Positions 1,751-26,975 of a stretch of DNA of 27,032 nucleotides are shown piece by piece. Source of the DNA: a virus. How positions within the stretch are numbered: the first letter of the stretch is position 1; each line of letters starts with the position of its first letter. The translations under genes and the position numbers were made by a program. The stretch spans positions 1 to 27,032 of IMG/VR virus record IMGVR_UViG_3300029977_000010, one strand, 5' to 3'. The notes below the pieces were generated by a model that was not told where the DNA came from, searched no databases, and worked only from the letters and a program-made list of their open reading frames with translations.

Positions 1751-1822
1751 AAGGAGGTTCTCGAACTGGCGCCCTCTGCCTCTTTTACGCCCCCATACAC
1801 AGAGGGCGCCCCATCCACCATG
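1751..1822 (+). promoter_or_regulatory. SD, perfect 11-bp hairpin, then ATG of the primase gene
   Basis: AAGGAGG (1751-1757) comes five bases after the regulator's stop, but the next ATG in frame is at 1820. Between them lies a perfect inverted repeat, GGCGCCCTCTG (1768-1778) and CAGAGGGCGCC (1800-1810), with a 21-base loop. Folding the hairpin would bring the SD within about 19 bases of the ATG. Alternatives are initiation at the in-frame CTG at 1766, eight bases after the SD, or a DNA-level operator for the HTH regulator. Confidence 0.7.
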
Positions 1823-4489
1823 AGAGCATTATATCTCGATAACCGGAACAATGGCAAGACCTTGTTGGGACACGATGTTATAGAGGCCGCTTGTGCTTAT
1901 CTCAAGCGGGGGTGGAAGGTCATCCCTATAGAGAAGCTTAGCAAGAAACCAACCACCAAAGACTGGCCAAACTTGAACATTAGAGAGGAGGAGGTTGACC
2001 TCTACTTTAACGAAGGAAAGAACATCGGGGTCATTCTTGGTAAGCCTTCCGGTGGATTAGTAGATGTAGACATCGACTACCCCCCCGCTTATGAGGTAGC
2101 TGACTACTTCCTCCCCAAAACCGGTGCAATCTTCGGTCGTAAATCCAAACCCAGATCTCACTGGATTTACTACTGCCCAGATGCAGAAACCACGAAGTTT
2201 AGTTTTAAAGGCCAGATGCTGGTAGAGATTCGTTCCACCGGAGCACAAACTATTTTTCCTCCTTCCATTCACCCCTCTGAGGAACCAATTGAGTGGGAGG
2301 AGGCAAGTGAGGCAGCACACGTAGAGATGGAAGAGTTGAAGAGAGGCGTAGCCAAACTTGCCTCCTGCGCGCTGCTTTCTATTTACTACCCCACAGAAGG
2401 TAGCCGCCAATATGCAGCAATGGCACTTGCGGGCTACCTGCTCCGCAGAGGTTGGAGCGAGGACGAAACAAGGGGGTTCCTCGAAGCCCTGTGTAAGCTC
2501 GCTAGAGACGAAGAAACCCGCATGAGACTGACGCAGATTCGCTACACTGCAACGAAGATTGATCGTGACCTACCCACAACAGGCTTCCCCACACTTTCAC
2601 AGTACTACCCAGAGGATGTTCTACAGAAGGTTGCTGAGTGGCTTGGGCTAAAAACCGAGAAACCCAAAACAAAACAAATTGTAGTCCTGGACAAGTTCTA
2701 CCCCCGTCCCTTCACCGAACGGCTCATTGCCCGCTACCAGTTCTGGTGGCCCGGAGGGAAAGAACCACTCTACTGGTACGACCCAGAAGAAGGCATTTGG
2801 CGGGACGACGGCGAAGAGCTCATCATACATGAACTCAGAACAGCTGTTGAAGAACTGCCCGATGTACAGAAGCGGCGGTACGTCATCGATGAGATTATAG
2901 CCGATGTCAAGGGTGTGTGTTGGAAGGGAAAGCCACTTCCCGAACCACCTCTCCATCTCATTCCTCTGCAGAACGGTGTCTTTGACCTTGAAACCGGGGA
3001 AGTGCGAGAATACCGCCCGGAAGACTTCTTTACCGCGAAGCTCCCCTGGCGCTACAACCCCAAAGCTCAGAGTAAGCTCGTCATCCCTCTTATTGAAAGC
3101 ATTTTGCCTCAGGAAGAGACCATTACCCTGTACGAACTAATGGCGTATTGTCTTTTCCGGGACTATCCGTACCAGAAGTTTTTCCTGCTTTTTGGACGTG
3201 GCTCAAATGGGAAGAGCCTCTTTGCCAAAATCCTTGAACGCTTCCTGGGTAAAGAGAACGTTGCTAGTGTAACCCTTCGCGAGTTCCAGCACGATCGTTT
3301 TGCTGCGTCAAGGCTTTACCGCAAGCTGGGGAATATCTGCAGTGAGCTTGAATATGAGGACATCGAGCGCACGGGGCTTCTGAAGCAACTTTGTGGTGGA
3401 GACATGGTTGAGGCAGACCGTAAGTTCCGAGAACCGATAAAGTTCCGGAACTATGCCAAGTTGATCTTCCTTACCAATGAGGTTCCTCGCAGTACAGACA
3501 CCACAGAAGCCTTCTACCGCCGCCTCTTCCTCATCGAGTTCCCAAAGAAGTTCAAGGAAGACCCAGAACTTGAGGTGCGTGTAACCACAGCTGAGGCAGA
3601 GGAATACGAAGCCTTACTTCTCAAGGTGCTGGAAGTGCTCAAAGCTTTGAAGGACCGCGGATTCGTGTTCTCGAGACACAAGTCCATAGAGGAAACCAGG
3701 GAACTCTACCTTAAGCTTTCCTCACCCCTGCACACCTTTATCGAGGAAAACTGCGAGATTACCTACCAGTCCGATGACTACATCTACAAGTATGAGTTTA
3801 AGGAGCGTTTTGGGCAGTGGTTGAAAGAGAAGGGAAGAACCGCCTATACCGACCAGAGACTTAAGAAAGAAATGCAATCGTTAGGGATTGAGGAAGCCCG
3901 CAAGGGTGCCGATAGCTGGTGGGCATGGGTTGGACTCAAATGGAAGGACACACCGTCAAAACCGTCAAGACCGTCAGGGTTTTACAACCGATATATAGCT
4001 GGGGAAAATCGATTTGAAAACCATGACGGTTCTGACGGTCTTGACGGTACACCTTCAAAACCACACTCAACTATTGAAGAAGAAGTCGTAGACCCCACAC
4101 CCTTTGAGAATAGAACTACCAAGGCTAACCCCTCCACTTTTGAGTTTTCTGACCTCCTCCCTGAGGAAGTCTCCCAGTCTGAAGAATCCCTCTTTACTCA
4201 ACCCACCACTCCTACCCAGAACACAACCACCATTGAAGAGGAACTTACCGACTGGCTTATGGAAACCTCTGAGGAAGAGGAACGGGAAACTACCTCCCTT
4301 AGTGACTCGCCCGCTGAAGAAACTCCACTTCCCTGTTCAGTCTGTACCCACCCCAAGCGCTCCGAGATTGAATACCTTTACGACTCTATGGTCTCTCCCA
4401 AAAGACTAAGCAAGAAGTACCGCATTGATGTTGGAGTTATTAAGACGCATATGGAGGTACATCGGAAGAGTACACCTCCTCCGGTCTAA
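1820..4489 (+). CDS. Primase-helicase: prim-pol, D5-type SF3 helicase, C-terminal Cys/His HTH module
   Basis: This 889-residue replication protein begins with a bifunctional primase-polymerase domain (about residues 15-190). The acidic motif is VDVDID (81-86), followed by SHWIY with H114 and an EIRSTGAQTIFPPS segment. A D5_N-like region follows, then an SF3 helicase with Walker A GRGSNGKS (459-466), ICSELE as the Walker B-like motif, sensor LIFLTNE and arginine-finger segment FYRRLF near 565. After a winged-helix-like part comes a linker (711-743) encoded entirely by the 98-bp iteron repeat. Next is a Ser/Thr/Glu-rich stretch, then a module with CSVC near 838 and HMEVH near the end around an HTH-like sequence. 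The ORF remains open back to 1673, but that N-terminus overlaps the regulator. Expected role: unwinding and priming at the phage origin. Confidence 0.9.
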   Translation: MRALYLDNRNNGKTLLGHDVIEAACAYLKRGWKVIPIEKLSKKPTTKDWPNLNIREEEVDLYFNEGKNIGVILGKPSGGLVDVDIDYPPAYEVADYFLPKTGAIFGRKSKPRSHWIYYCPDAETTKFSFKGQMLVEIRSTGAQTIFPPSIHPSEEPIEWEEASEAAHVEMEELKRGVAKLASCALLSIYYPTEGSRQYAAMALAGYLLRRGWSEDETRGFLEALCKLARDEETRMRLTQIRYTATKIDRDLPTTGFPTLSQYYPEDVLQKVAEWLGLKTEKPKTKQIVVLDKFYPRPFTERLIARYQFWWPGGKEPLYWYDPEEGIWRDDGEELIIHELRTAVEELPDVQKRRYVIDEIIADVKGVCWKGKPLPEPPLHLIPLQNGVFDLETGEVREYRPEDFFTAKLPWRYNPKAQSKLVIPLIESILPQEETITLYELMAYCLFRDYPYQKFFLLFGRGSNGKSLFAKILERFLGKENVASVTLREFQHDRFAASRLYRKLGNICSELEYEDIERTGLLKQLCGGDMVEADRKFREPIKFRNYAKLIFLTNEVPRSTDTTEAFYRRLFLIEFPKKFKEDPELEVRVTTAEAEEYEALLLKVLEVLKALKDRGFVFSRHKSIEETRELYLKLSSPLHTFIEENCEITYQSDDYIYKYEFKERFGQWLKEKGRTAYTDQRLKKEMQSLGIEEARKGADSWWAWVGLKWKDTPSKPSRPSGFYNRYIAGENRFENHDGSDGLDGTPSKPHSTIEEEVVDPTPFENRTTKANPSTFEFSDLLPEEVSQSEESLFTQPTTPTQNTTTIEEELTDWLMETSEEEERETTSLSDSPAEETPLPCSVCTHPKRSEIEYLYDSMVSPKRLSKKYRIDVGVIKTHMEVHRKSTPPPV
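3951..4048. repeat. 98-bp iteron repeat, copy 1 (inside primase gene)
   Basis: Three ACCGTCA units start at 3952, 3961 and 3970, and three inverted units TGACGGT start at 4024, 4033 and 4042, all at exactly 9-bp spacing. They flank a 47-bp core with a central ATATATAGC and partial dyad symmetry (GGTTTT...CGAT on both strands). The reverse complement is found without a mismatch at 21416-21513. Because the period is 9, the iterons read in frame as SKP/SRP and DGS/DGL triplets. Candidate replication origin, or a palindromic mobile repeat. Confidence 0.93.
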
Positions 4490-4618
4490 TTTTGGTTACC
4501 AGTGTTTAGTGAGAGACACACACAACCATTGTGGTCCGTTCAAATAGGTAGGTAGGGAGAGACGGGCATGGCTGGGGTGTGGTGGAGGGGTGAAAAACCA
4601 AAATCCAGGAGGTCAGCC

Positions 4619-4873
4619 ATGCCAGTGGGAACCCTCAAACGCAGGAAGCGCCACTTCCCTGAGTCCTATTCCATTGAGCAAGTTATCTTCGCCGTTCAGC
4701 ATGACCACCCAGATTGGGACACGGAGCGTGTATTAGCGGAAGCAAGGAGGATCTACTCTGCAATCCGTGCCCTCGACATGCAGGAGCTCCGTTCCAATCG
4801 TAGATTCTATGCCCATGAAATTCCCTCCGGCCTTGATCCCCAAAACCAACTGAGAGAAGAAGAGGAGGAATAA
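4619..4873 (+). CDS. Small hypothetical early protein
   Basis: The start at 4619 is favoured by AGGAGG six bases upstream. An earlier in-frame ATG at 4568 has only a weak site. The 84-residue product has a basic N-terminus (GTLKRRKRHF), a helical middle (PDWDTERVLAEARRIYSAIR) and an acidic tail of consecutive Glu residues. Its TAA overlaps the ATG of the phosphoesterase gene (TAATG), so the two are probably translated together. The 130 bases separating it from the primase gene hold no recognisable gene. No family or function is recognised. Confidence 0.7.
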   Translation: MPVGTLKRRKRHFPESYSIEQVIFAVQHDHPDWDTERVLAEARRIYSAIRALDMQELRSNRRFYAHEIPSGLDPQNQLREEEEE

Positions 4874-5913: not shown

Positions 5914-6461
5914 GGAAGTTCTTATTGCTGGTGTTCCTCGTCGGTTCTCTTGTCCTGTTCCCTTCCTGTGTGGCTGCACTTCCCGAATTCACTACCTCAC
6001 CCTCGTTTGAGGAGTGGATTTCTAGTCTTGGCACATGGGAGGATTTGGAAGACTTCCTCCTTAGGTGTGAGTATGTCTCTGATTTCGTGCAATTCAACAA
6101 GCGAGAGTACGTCCAGACTCCTGAGGAGTTCTTCCACAATCGTAGGGGAGACTGTGAGGATTTCGCCTACTTTACAGCTTATGTGTTTCATCGGAAGTAC
6201 TGGGCCACCGAGACCTTTGTGGTTTCAGTTTCAGGCTTCTACGACGGTAAGGAGATCAGACATACAACAGCGGTTATTCGCGATCTGGGAGGTTATTTTG
6301 TTGTAGATTTCGCCACAATGTACAGGCGATATTCCACCCTTGAAGAGGCTATAAGAGCAAGCTTCCCATTCCAGAGATTGAGAATCTGGGCAGTTCAGGA
6401 GGTCAAAAGCAACCGAAGCTTGGAATCAGTAACCTTATTGAGTGAATTGGCGAGCCCGTAG
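5910..6461 (+). CDS. Exported transglutaminase-like cysteine protein
   Basis: The 183-residue product begins with a clear signal peptide (charged start, hydrophobic core FLLLVFLVGSLVLF, then PSCVAALP around residue 20). C20 could be a lipoprotein cysteine or part of a signal peptidase I site. The mature part carries a transglutaminase/BTLCP-like triad: C82 in RRGDCEDFAYF, H118 in RHTTAVI and D133 in VVDFAT. Such domains act as cysteine proteases or transferases on proteins or peptides outside the cytoplasm. In a prophage this could alter the envelope, exclude other phages, or help lysis. The last ten bases, including the TAG, lie within the tRNA-Trp gene. Confidence 0.78.
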   Translation: MRKFLLLVFLVGSLVLFPSCVAALPEFTTSPSFEEWISSLGTWEDLEDFLLRCEYVSDFVQFNKREYVQTPEEFFHNRRGDCEDFAYFTAYVFHRKYWATETFVVSVSGFYDGKEIRHTTAVIRDLGGYFVVDFATMYRRYSTLEEAIRASFPFQRLRIWAVQEVKSNRSLESVTLLSELASP

Positions 6462-6527
6462 CTCTAACGGCAGAGCGCCGGACTCCAAATCCGGGGGTTG
6501 CAGGTTCGAATCCTGCCGGACTCGCCA
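6452..6527 (+). tRNA. Phage-borne tRNA-Trp (anticodon CCA)
   Basis: All arms fold: D stem GCTC/GAGC, anticodon stem CCGGA/TCCGG with loop CTCCAAA (anticodon CCA at 6485-6487), T stem GCAGG/CCTGC with loop TTCGAAT, discriminator G and encoded CCA. The acceptor GAGCCCG/CGGACTC has one C-A mismatch at the fourth pair. The three bases before the tRNA (GGC) can pair with the GCC formed by the discriminator and the first two bases of CCA. The upstream gene's stop codon TAG is tRNA positions 8-10. The tRNA must be released from a polycistronic transcript unless a hidden promoter lies in the upstream gene. Confidence 0.92.
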
Positions 6528-15137: not shown

Positions 15138-15433
15138 TCGCTCTGACGTATGACGAGGCCGTTCGTCTGGGCAGCGGCCTCCTTGGGCTCCCACTAAGCG
15201 AGGTTCTTTCAATGACCCCACTTGAGCTCATCTGGGCAGTGGAAGGCAGGAGCGAGTTCCACAATTTCCTCTACGAAAGCATGGTTACTGCTGGCTGGCT
15301 CTCCGCTGCCCTTGAGCGTCAAAAACGCATTCCTCCTCTTGAGAAGCTTCTCAAGTGCAAGAGAAGGGTGAAGAGTAATGAGGAAGCCCGAAAAGAATTT
15401 GAGGAGTTAAAGAGGGAATTCGCAGATGGCTGA
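15113..15433 (+). CDS. Tail assembly chaperone C-terminal (T-like) part, made by frameshifting
   Basis: This -1 frame has no plausible independent start near its beginning; the first ATG is at 15212 and lacks a good ribosome site. It continues directly from the slippery site, giving a 202-residue fusion (96 residues of the short chaperone plus 106). Segments are YDEAVRLGSGLLGLPLSEVL, LIWAVEGRSEFHNFLYES and a charged helical end. In lambda the T domain recruits the tube protein to the tape measure. The stop overlaps the tape-measure start by eight bases. Confidence 0.82.
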   Translation, partial: GGEESGYVVALTYDEAVRLGSGLLGLPLSEVLSMTPLELIWAVEGRSEFHNFLYESMVTAGWLSAALERQKRIPPLEKLLKCKRRVKSNEEARKEFEELKREFADG

Positions 15434-18400
15434 CGCCACAATTGTCGTTGAAGTCATAGGCGACATCTCAAAAGTTAATAGTGCCCTCCAACAGTTCGAG
15501 AATACGACAAAGGATACCTTCGGCAAGCTTGAGGGATTAGGAAAGACGCTCTCGGCTACCGTCACAGCACCACTTGTCGGGGTGGGGACTGCAGCCATCA
15601 ATGCGGCAATGAATTTCAATAGCGCCATGGCCAACGTTGCGGCCCTAATTCCCGAGAATACTCAGAGGGTTGAGGAATTGAAAAGTGCTGTTCAGTCCCT
15701 CTCAACGGAACTTGGGAAATCCACCGACGACCTTGCTAAGGGTCTGTACGAGGTCATCTCAGCATTTGGTGATTCCGAAGAGACAATGGGGCGACTGGAG
15801 GCTGCTGCAAAACTTGCCAGGGCTGGTGTGGCGGATACTACTGAATCCATCAGGATGCTCGCTGTAGTCACAAAGGCTTACGGTGATACTTCCCTCGAGG
15901 CTGTCCAAAAAGTCTCCGACTTTGCCCTGATGACCGTCAAGTTAGGGCAGACAACCCTCCCTGAACTCGCAAACGCCCTTGGCAAAGTAGCCCCCATTGC
16001 CTCGACGTTGGGCGTCTCCCTTGAGGAGCTCCACACCGTCTTTGCTACTCTCACTGGGGTCACCGGAAATGCCGCCGAGGTGGCCACCCAGTTCAGGGCA
16101 ATCCTGAGCGAATTCCTAAAACCCAGCGAGGAACTCGCAAAGGTCATCGCCGAGATGGGATATGAATCCGGTCCCGAGTTTATTAGGACCATGGGGGGTG
16201 TTGTCCCCGCTATAAAAGCCCTGTACGAGCACGTCAACAAAGACGAAGCGGCATTTTCAACACTATTCGGAAGGATTGAGGGCATCAACGCCGCACTGGC
16301 GCTCGTCGGCCCTCAGGCGGAAACTTTCAGCGAAAAGCTCCAGCAAATGGGGCAGGCTGCCGGGTTCACAGAGGAGGCATTCAAGGCACAGACACAAGGT
16401 ATTAACGCTGCTGGTTTCGCCTGGGAGCAGTTTAGGGCAAAGCTGCAGGTGTTCATGCAGCAGATTGGCGACAAGCTCCTCCCTGTTCTCGCCCGACTTC
16501 TTGATAACGTCTCAGTTCTCTTTGATTGGTTCTCCAAGCTACCTCCCAAGGTGCAGGATTTCCTCATCATCCTTGCTGGTGCTGCCGCTGCTTCCGGTCC
16601 CATTATGATGGCTGTGGGTGCTATTGGTCAGGCCACAAGTGCTTTTGGTTCCTTTGCCTCTTTGTTTGCCGCAGGAGGAGTGTTAGGCCCATGTGGTCTG
16701 GTTGCTGTGGGTGTGGCCGCAGTAGCCCTACTTATCTACCAGAACTGGGACAAAATCAAGGAATTCCTCCTAAACACCTGGGAGGGAATCAAGTCTGCTG
16801 CTGAGGCAGTTTGGGGAGGCATTAAAGGGTTTTTCACCAGGCTATGGGACGGCTTAATAGAGTACCATCGGACCACGATGGAGGCGTGGCATTCCCTCTT
16901 CTCCACAGCTTGGGAAGGAATCAGAGGCGTTGCTGAGACCGTCTGGGGTAATATTAAGGGCTTCTTCCTCAAGATCTGGGACGGCCTTGAAGCCTACCAC
17001 CAGGCCTCCATGGAACAGACCCACAGCATTCTTTCCTCTATCTGGGAGAAGACCAAAGGGGTTGCCGAAACCATTTGGGGTGGCATCAAGAGTTTCTTTC
17101 TCAGGGTTTGGGAAGGTGTTAACGCTTACCACGAGGCCTCGATGGAGCAAACCCACAACATTCTTACTACCACATGGGCACTGATTAAAAAAGGTGCTGA
17201 GACAACCTGGGATGGTATCAAGAGCTTTTTCCTAAGCCTCTGGGATGGCATCAAGACGAAGTGGGAAGCCGCCTGGGCAGGTATTGGTGGTTTTCTGGAA
17301 AAGACTTGGGAAAGCATTACCGAAAAAGCCTCAAAGGCCTGGAGTAAGATTATATCAGGGGCACAGTCGCTGTGGGATAAGCTCGTTGGACACTCTATTA
17401 TTCCCGACATGGTTACCGCCATCAACGAAGAGTTCAATCGTATTGACTCCTCTATAGCTGTGAAGAGGATGAAAACCTTGGAGCAGAAGTTCCCAGAGAT
17501 CTCCGGGGCACTTGTGGTAAGCGCGAAGCAGATGGTCCAAGAGCTCAATGGTGTCTTTGGGAGTCTCAACATTGCGCCCGCTGCATCAGAGATCGAAGGC
17601 TTTGGAATGAGCTTTGAGGCTTCTATTGACAAGGTCTTGCGGGGAGCCCTGCAAATGGAGGAGGCCTTTGGTGGGGTTATTAACTGGAATGCTCAACTTA
17701 AAGCCTCCTTTGACTCTCTCGAGATGGGTGTAGAGAGTACCACAAAATCGATAGACGCCCTGATGGATAAAGTTCTTGGTGTGGTTAACCAGATAGGGAA
17801 CATTGTCATCAACATGAGCTTCGGCGAACAGCCCACGGTAGGGCAGGTCGGCGGTTTACTCTCCAGCATCCTAAACTTCTTTGTGGGGATTCCCAAATGG
17901 ATCTCTACCGTACTTCAGACGATTTTCGGCTGGATTGATAACTACAGAAAGAAACTCGAGGAATTGATTAAGAGCGTTCTCGGGCAGATGACTGGAGCCC
18001 TCAAGGAGTTCTTTGAGGCTCCCTCCCTCCAGCAAGCCATAAACACCTTTGGTGAAAGACTCAAGAATATAGTGTACCAAATGCTTGTTGACGCTGTAGT
18101 GAAGGCTATTGTGGCTAGCGAAGCGGTGAGGAGCGCAGCAGAAGCCCTTGGGAAGGCTATAAATGAAGCCATCAAGAAGGCTACGGCTGGAGGTGTGTTT
18201 GACCCCCAGACCTTCATGTCTATCGCTGGTCCTGCCATAAATGCTTTTGCCCAGTTCTGGCAAAACACAATGCTTCCTGTTCTTGAGCAGACTTTCCAAG
18301 CACTTCAGCCCTACAACCCACTCGCCGGAGAGCCACAGTATGTTACCGTGAGTGGTACATTTACCAAGTCGTTAGATCTCGGATGGGTAGCGAATACTGA

Positions 18401-18542
18401 GAAAACAACAACCGTTGCGAATATCGGGGACATAAACATCAACATCAATGTGGCTGAGGGTAATCCTGAGCTTATCGCTTCACAGATTTGGGACGAGTTG
18501 AGCTTTGAGGCTCGACGACGTGGGGTGGAGTGGTGGCCATGA
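15426..18542 (+). CDS. Tape measure protein, TP901 family
   Basis: The protein has 1038 residues. Residues about 55-300 match the TP901 tape-measure core (NFNSAMANVAALIPENTQRV, LSTELGKSTDDLAKGLYEVI, LGVSLEELHTVFATLTGVTG). Hydrophobic segments occur near residues 380-440. Then comes a tryptophan-rich set of 44-residue repeats (16779-17264), followed by helical regions. Length sets tail length: at the usual 1.5 angstrom per residue, about 150 nm, a rough estimate. It may also help DNA or a lytic activity cross the envelope, but no peptidase motif is visible. Confidence 0.93.
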   Translation: MADATIVVEVIGDISKVNSALQQFENTTKDTFGKLEGLGKTLSATVTAPLVGVGTAAINAAMNFNSAMANVAALIPENTQRVEELKSAVQSLSTELGKSTDDLAKGLYEVISAFGDSEETMGRLEAAAKLARAGVADTTESIRMLAVVTKAYGDTSLEAVQKVSDFALMTVKLGQTTLPELANALGKVAPIASTLGVSLEELHTVFATLTGVTGNAAEVATQFRAILSEFLKPSEELAKVIAEMGYESGPEFIRTMGGVVPAIKALYEHVNKDEAAFSTLFGRIEGINAALALVGPQAETFSEKLQQMGQAAGFTEEAFKAQTQGINAAGFAWEQFRAKLQVFMQQIGDKLLPVLARLLDNVSVLFDWFSKLPPKVQDFLIILAGAAAASGPIMMAVGAIGQATSAFGSFASLFAAGGVLGPCGLVAVGVAAVALLIYQNWDKIKEFLLNTWEGIKSAAEAVWGGIKGFFTRLWDGLIEYHRTTMEAWHSLFSTAWEGIRGVAETVWGNIKGFFLKIWDGLEAYHQASMEQTHSILSSIWEKTKGVAETIWGGIKSFFLRVWEGVNAYHEASMEQTHNILTTTWALIKKGAETTWDGIKSFFLSLWDGIKTKWEAAWAGIGGFLEKTWESITEKASKAWSKIISGAQSLWDKLVGHSIIPDMVTAINEEFNRIDSSIAVKRMKTLEQKFPEISGALVVSAKQMVQELNGVFGSLNIAPAASEIEGFGMSFEASIDKVLRGALQMEEAFGGVINWNAQLKASFDSLEMGVESTTKSIDALMDKVLGVVNQIGNIVINMSFGEQPTVGQVGGLLSSILNFFVGIPKWISTVLQTIFGWIDNYRKKLEELIKSVLGQMTGALKEFFEAPSLQQAINTFGERLKNIVYQMLVDAVVKAIVASEAVRSAAEALGKAINEAIKKATAGGVFDPQTFMSIAGPAINAFAQFWQNTMLPVLEQTFQALQPYNPLAGEPQYVTVSGTFTKSLDLGWVANTEKTTTVANIGDINININVAEGNPELIASQIWDELSFEARRRGVEWWP
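16779..17264 (+). repeat. Tryptophan-rich 132-bp tandem repeats in the tape measure
   Basis: Three complete units begin at 16779, 16911 and 17043 and a partial fourth at 17175, each starting with a TGG codon. Each encodes 44 residues of the pattern WEGIK..AE.VWGGIKGFF, then LWDGL.AYH..SMEQTHS. The first unit diverges most, and units two and three are the closest pair. The period is exact although the DNA has drifted. Confidence 0.9.
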
Positions 18543-21415: not shown

Positions 21416-21513
21416 ACCGTCAAGACCGTCAGAACCGTCATGGTTTTCAAATCGATTTTCCCCAGCTATATATCGGTTGTAAAACCCTGACGGTCTTGAC
21501 GGTTTTGACGGTG
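21416..21513. repeat. 98-bp iteron repeat, copy 2 (inverted, late region)
   Basis: This is the exact reverse complement of 3951-4048. Identity ends sharply at both sides (c21415 and c21514 do not continue the match). A further single ACCGTCA lies at 21534-21540. The copy is in a non-coding gap that seems to have been created inside the hub gene. The minus strand reads through it in the same frame as the primase linker, but no gene starts there. Confidence 0.93.
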
Positions 21514-21614
21514 CCCTGGCTTTGTTGGGGTACACCGTCAAGTCCATTGTGGATTCCAGCCGAATTCGACCAACGTTGGTTCTTCGTCGGTACCCCACAA
21601 GACAGGTTCAATAG
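21513..21614 (+). pseudogene. Detached C-terminal remnant of the tail hub gene
   Basis: Directly after the repeat a frame reads ALALLGYTVKSIVDSSRI and then RPTLVLRRYPTRQVQ before TAG at 21612. This is a good final beta hairpin for the hub fold. The TAG overlaps the next gene's AGGAGG, which is the packing seen elsewhere in this operon and marks this as the original gene end. No start codon or ribosome site precedes it, and the frame contains a TAA within the repeat (21480), so it is probably not translated alone. Confidence 0.65.
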
Positions 21615-26905: not shown

Positions 26906-26975
26906 TGTAGCTCAATGGCAGAGCAGCGGAATCGTAATCCGCAGGTTGTCCGTTCAAGTCGGATCGCCGGCTCCA
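26906..26975 (+). repeat. Right attachment-site repeat (tRNA-Thr 3' copy)
   Basis: Seventy bases are identical to 55-124. The five bases before it do not restore the acceptor helix (GGGTT instead of GCCGG), so four of the first five acceptor pairs are lost and this copy should not yield a working tRNA. It marks the right end of the prophage. The following 57 bases are host chromosome without a recognisable feature. Confidence 0.92.

Follow-up and report, generated by a model that had tools for sequence, protein, structure and literature searches.

The alpha protein of P4 joins a primase of the Toprim type (PMC4234260) to an SF3 helicase and a C-terminal winged-helix origin-binding domain. Its short iterons (word GGTGAACAG) lie outside the alpha gene in inverted groups, spaced at 9 bp in crr, and P4 has two sites, one of which, crr, directly adjoins the 3' end of the alpha gene while the other, ori, lies elsewhere, with two 120-bp repeats. 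ORF904 of the archaeal plasmid pRN1 is composed of PrimPol, SF3 and winged-helix domains, and deletion mapping showed that a stem-loop of ~100 nt located 3' of its gene is needed for replication (PMC4234260). The pRN1 authors described this origin as a stem-loop without iterons, with recognition motifs that were not yet identified (PMC4234260). In the initiator helicases SaPI Rep and SCCmec Cch2, the C-terminal domain recognizes iterons that follow the helicase gene directly on its downstream side (PMC7581432, citing Ubeda et al. 2007); there the primase is a separate protein and the iterons are outside the gene, which differs from the locus reported below. This kind of origin is known from P4, SaPI, SCCmec and pRN1, while placement within the gene of a primase, exact duplication of the element and covariation between wing and iterons look new when judged against open-licence papers.

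Lambda O is not a primase-helicase; it acts through P and the host DnaB, and the layout of its origin is different. The lambda O gene contains its own origin, ori-lambda (PMC6022878), and the initial annotation had cited it as a precedent. As an example of an initiator gene that harbours an origin the comparison is fair, yet the protein studied here, with SF3 helicase and primase domains of its own, has much nearer counterparts in P4 alpha, SaPI Rep and pRN1 ORF904.

We analyzed a 27,032-bp stretch of viral DNA, hereafter the window, whose record is a 27-kb provirus with an integrase and 70-bp direct repeats at both ends. The tRNA-Thr gene at the provirus ends is 93% identical to a tRNA of a Synergistota genome (G006), which suggests a host in or near Synergistota. 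A second tRNA gene, tRNA-Trp (CCA), lies within the provirus at 6452-6527, just ahead of the terminase genes, and a 132-bp tandem repeat (16925-17165) occurs in a tape-measure-like gene at 15426-18542. Primase and SF3/D5 helicase are joined in one window protein (PF09250, PF08706 and PF19263, with E 2.5e-21 for the DUF5906 match) in the domain order PrimPol - SF3 - winged helix, and its gene is interrupted in frame by a 98-bp element (Table 1). This element is very probably a landing site for the protein encoded by its host gene, judging from sequence comparison, and we consider it likely to serve the primase-helicase whose gene it interrupts as an iteron-type replication origin of the P4-alpha/pRN1 type, or as a site equivalent to an origin, as crr is in P4, bound through the wing.

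Table 1 Features of the window, numbered from its first nucleotide
Feature	Position	Strand	Evidence or remark
Exact 70-bp direct repeats over tRNA-Thr (CGT) gene	55-124 and 26906-26975		Mark provirus ends
PrimPol-SF3 primase-helicase gene, 889 aa, proposed origin-binding initiator	1820..4489	+	Pfam and PHROGs matches; start ATG 1820, stop TAA 4489
PrimPol domain, residues 24-163	1889..2308	+	PF09250 E 2e-14
D5_N + DUF5906 / SF3 helicase region, residues 319-568	2774..3523	+	PF08706, PF19263
C-terminal winged helix, residues ~654-708, proposed iteron-binding domain	3779..3943	+	AlphaFold pLDDT ~90 and over; fold matches RFX-DBD and P4 origin-binding domain
Wing hairpin EEARK...WWAWV, proposed word-reading part	3890..3931	+	Model strands 91-95 and 100-104; covariation of corresponding hairpin in actinophage family
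Element copy 1, in frame, residues 711-743	3951..4048	+	Three ACCGTCA iterons, centre, three inverted iterons
Core TTTTACAACCGATATATA, 18 bp	3980..3997	+	Common exactly to the Acetomicrobium element
Cys/His module PCSVC...HMEVH at C-terminus	4331..4462	+	Lacking in L007 and L057
Element copy 2, 98/98 identical, between late genes	21416..21513	-	Inverted relative to copy 1

The element consists of three inverted pairs of a 9-bp iteron (ACCGTCA plus two nucleotides) flanking a 47-bp centre. In copy 1, ACCGTCA is found on the plus strand at 3952, 3961 and 3970, and TGACGGT at 4024, 4033 and 4042. We found 8 exact matches to the pattern ACCGTCANNACCGTCA, compared to 0.12 expected at up to two mismatches (100 shuffles, largest 1). 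A lone additional ACCGTCA at 21534-21540, ~20 bp beyond copy 2, could be due to chance. The core TTTTACAACCNATATATA alone had 11 matches in viral contigs, all of them without iterons, and these were taken as chance. GC skew of the window was uninformative on origin position.

Copy 1 was confirmed to encode the residues to which the initial annotation had assigned it, with the translation PSKPSRPSG...DGSDGLDG. Codon statistics in this frame were 0.26 for the main gene and 0.20 for the 146-aa extension behind the element, both of which look coding and translated, and -0.09 for the element itself, which is not coding-shaped, as would follow from a constraint on its DNA other than coding. The AlphaFold model showed the linker encoded by the element to be disordered and the winged helix before it to be of high confidence.

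The predicted fold of this winged helix matched the P4 origin-binding domain (1ka8) with Z 7.6 and an rmsd of 2.6 over 74 residues, while that of a member of the actinophage family described below matched the same P4 domain with Z 8.3. The best fold match was the RFX DNA-binding domain (Z ~10); Foldseek ranked RFX and an ASFV PrimPol above P4, which we took as fold similarity only. RFX1 reads DNA with its wing. X-box half sites of RFX such as GTTACC (PMC2375033) resemble the actinophage iteron GTTAC, although RFX is a eukaryotic transcription factor and the likeness extends only to fold and word. From sequence and domain comparison, the window protein would work like P4 alpha, but its domain make-up is closer to pRN1 ORF904, with a PrimPol (AEP) primase where P4 has a Toprim one and an identical distant copy of the element where P4 has its 120-bp repeats. 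The ~100-bp inverted element behind the winged-helix codons of pRN1 is likewise comparable to the 98 bp found here, the differences being that it is present as a single copy outside the gene and belongs to an archaeal plasmid. By its presumed crr/ori-like mode of working and the pRN1-like domain order we assign the window element to this type of origin, from whose known examples it differs by its position within the ORF and its exact duplication.

The window primase had few close homologues, with one in genome contigs, an Acetomicrobium provirus (L007), and one more in viral contigs. The helicase region of L007 is 66% identical to that of the window, and its 95-bp element comprises GTAACAGAA repeats, an identical core and then inverted repeats. 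The L007 protein ends right behind the winged helix and has no Cys/His tail. Its TAA lies within the first iteron (4107-4109, GTAAC), as does that of another primase gene, L040 (2311-2313, GTGTAAGTT), so that it depends on the word whether the gene stops or continues through the element. A further homologue, L057, is 81% identical to L007; its protein also ends after the winged helix without the Cys/His module, and two tandem origin-like elements with a layout related to that of the window follow the single primase gene at ~4350-4645. These two elements have a central CAATTTTTCTGAGTGTATA in common, while their words differ (GGAAC type versus GAACA/GTAACAG type). The element is outside coding sequence in L007 and L057, as opposed to its in-frame position in the window ORF, and the L007 and L057 elements together indicate that the element is old, its place fixed, its word changeable and the Cys/His tail not required. 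In a survey of 185 Synergistota genomes, more distant homologues had inverted iterons with other words just 3' of the gene, and the word differed by a single base (GGGCACTT, GAGCACTT) between the closely related L030/L031 and L032. The array detector found 0 iteron arrays in 1.37 Mb of shuffled sequence.

These comparisons also bear on which part of the protein would bind the iterons. The initial annotation had correctly identified a primase-helicase of the SF3 type (confirmed by the Pfam matches) and the CSVC and HMEVH motifs (at about residues 839-881), and had proposed that the C-terminal Cys/His module binds the iterons. Codon statistics show the module to be translated, and its make-up resembles short zinc/HTH modules (by inspection, with weak tblastn matches at E 0.1), but it is lacking in the element-bearing L007 and L057, while the winged helix is common to all element-bearing primases and in actinophages the word covaries with the wing that precedes the element. 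Binding through the Cys/His module is therefore very improbable. Searches of Pfam, PHROGs and solved structures returned nothing solid for this module, and no homologue bearing it was found. The broader proposal of the initial annotation, that the primase binds iterons contained in the gene encoding it, is very likely correct given the comparison with homologues, which show iteron covariation.

Two copies that are identical up to the element ends and no further, one of them inserted in frame in a disordered linker, are what a mobile or selfish palindromic repeat, similar to a MITE or a Rickettsia palindromic element, would leave when inserted in the primase gene and between late genes. Such a repeat would not account for the homologous L007 element, which has an identical core but another word and occupies the same place, nor for a place behind the winged helix that is constant even in unrelated primases; moreover, the element has so far always been tied to a primase and never scattered in related genomes. 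We give this explanation hardly any credence, although a copying event of some kind could still account for copy 2.

The exact window iteron pair was found in viral contigs only in two large actinophage contigs (L005 and L006), where a primase-helicase unrelated to that of the window has the same element in its ORF, at the corresponding place. Within this actinophage family, 28/28 close members that reach far enough carry the element in frame within a single long ORF, with an exonuclease/polymerase-like part, by inspection, past the element (L068-L098), and in distant members it is either within the ORF or just behind the stop codon. A strict four-copy test was passed by 48 of 76 regions, compared to 0/76 upstream coding windows and 0/228 shuffles. 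By the same strict rule, 28 of the 76 relatives had no four-copy element near the gene, and none was detected near the gene in the isolates LuckyBarnes, OscarSo, Wyvern and Isperia. One 5-mer was common to all four iterons in each measurable close member (26/26), and differed between phages in five classes (GTACC, GTTAC, GTAAC, GTTCC and ATTAC), with at least 12 class switches on the tree. A second inverted GTACC element was present 42-49 kb from the primase copy in all genomes tested of one clade (8/8), while six other genomes had one element. In L098, the second element (L198 1159-1241) is ~48 kb from the primase copy beside virion-like genes, and has the same iteron word as the primase copy with a different centre. 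A recurrent inner inverted GTTAAC/TATAAC motif was observed in the element centres of L068-L098, constant across iteron words.

We also considered an origin of the stem-loop or cruciform type, along the lines proposed for pRN1, in which the protein recognizes the structure of the arms and not a repeated word. The pRN1 mutational data (PMC4234260) speak for such an origin, as does the folding energy of the 98-mer (-30.4 kcal/mol, z -8.6). Among the actinophage elements, free iteron positions matched the dyad partner in 84% of cases, compared to 62% for the tandem neighbour along the array and 45% for other genomes, which suggests that a hairpin or cruciform may matter besides the iterons and that dyad symmetry is probably also under some constraint. 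However, a pure stem would not need the 5-mer to be constant at all four places, tandem neighbours included, nor would it explain why the word covaries with wing residues, and the stems are broken at free positions in L071, L078 and L085. Recognition of arm structure instead of the word thus seems unlikely. The pRN1 stem-loop itself contains TGTCCA four times, inverted and with a 9-bp period. It is the only clean iteron case among the three pRN plasmids inspected, as pDL10 has no clean iterons and pHEN7 has TGTCAC words in its left arm and an imperfect right arm.

Covariation between wing and word was assessed in the actinophage family, as the window's own lineage has three members here, by correlating the word with each column of the protein alignment, with overall distance controlled for (residue numbers follow L068). 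Comparison across homologues had been suggested by the initial annotation, and we found that the iteron word covaries with the wing in this family. The top two word-correlated columns were 718 and 720, and a purity test across 748 columns returned 718, 720 and 742 as error-free predictors of word position 4, together with two iteron-encoded columns; alignment columns 775-789 predict the word but are iteron-encoded and were excluded. Residue 718 is Tyr with A at position 4 and Arg, Lys, Trp or Val with C. Residue 720 is Lys or Arg with C, Val or Ile with GTTAC, Leu with GTAAC and Ala or Pro with ATTAC, and residue 722 is Phe or Tyr with ATTAC. In the AlphaFold model, residues 718, 720 and 722 are on one strand of the wing and 741/742 on the other.

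The probability that an unlinked binary column fits the position-4 pattern on the tree is ~2.5e-5 or less, as a single-column value with 748 columns scanned, and the 4-5 independent switches at position 4 on the tree were all concordant (sign test p 0.125, underpowered). Among held-out sequences, the 720 rule was kept in L148, L157, L158 and L163 and may be broken in L147, while L137 (GTTAC) kept the 720 rule and broke the 718 rule. By eye, and with approximate residue correspondence, anecdotal comparisons pointed in the same direction, with EEARK in the window wing with ACC versus ESGQK with AAC in L007, and KDKKK with TGTCC in pRN1 versus KSQKR with TGTCA in pHEN7. We tentatively propose, rating the chance at a little short of even, that a small wing recognition code, in which basic residues accompany C and uncharged or aromatic ones A at position 4 while neighbouring strand residues set positions 1 and 3, allows a few substitutions to change the origin word of a phage or an archaeal plasmid. 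This would give such phages and plasmids private, mutually incompatible origins, located within the initiator gene or directly after it, and the pRN1 stem-loop origin would then consist of inverted iterons.

Short inverted repeats are also typical of operators, and copy 2 lies between late genes in a provirus with an HTH-protein gene at 1078-1746. A transcription operator or silencer, at which a phage repressor or, in self-regulation, the primase would act, would be consistent with these features, as would a site for packaging or partition. Yet the element is constantly linked to the 3' ends of primase-helicase genes and not to promoters, the word in relatives covaries with the primase's own winged helix, and the precedents in P4 and pRN1 are origins, such that a role other than that of an origin appears improbable.

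In the origin reading that we favour, protein-DNA binding, origin activity, helicase loading, the role of copy 2 and the direction of evolution are inferred. The C-terminal winged helix, mainly via its wing, would read the word repeated every 9 bp (here xxACCGTCA), and the inverted arrays would set two groups of initiator head to head flanking the core, where the SF3 helicase may open the duplex and the PrimPol domain may prime. Copy 2 may represent a second binding site or origin, similar to P4 ori plus crr. The ancestral position of the element was presumably just 3' of the gene, right behind the winged-helix codons, with the in-gene position arising when the word lost its in-frame stop. With a period divisible by three and no in-frame stop in the xxACC word, the window ORF can continue through the element into a C-terminal extension.

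The replication start site is still unknown for most temperate phages, and a simple rule, that inverted short words every 9-10 bp right after winged-helix codons, whether within the gene or behind it, mark a candidate origin, yields such candidates in dozens of phages. The same rule suggests the residues that decide the word, such that origin incompatibility among phages, satellites and plasmids becomes directly testable, and it may reconcile the P4 iterons and the pRN1 stem-loop as two descriptions of one kind of origin. For origins embedded in coding sequence, evolution of the DNA site can alter the protein, as a stop-bearing word ends the gene and another lets it run on. Among isolated phages, two AGCACAGAT iteron groups were observed between gp68 (primase) and gp69 of Mycobacterium phage Angelica (L114 3590-3772), which makes this gap a candidate for an unannotated origin.
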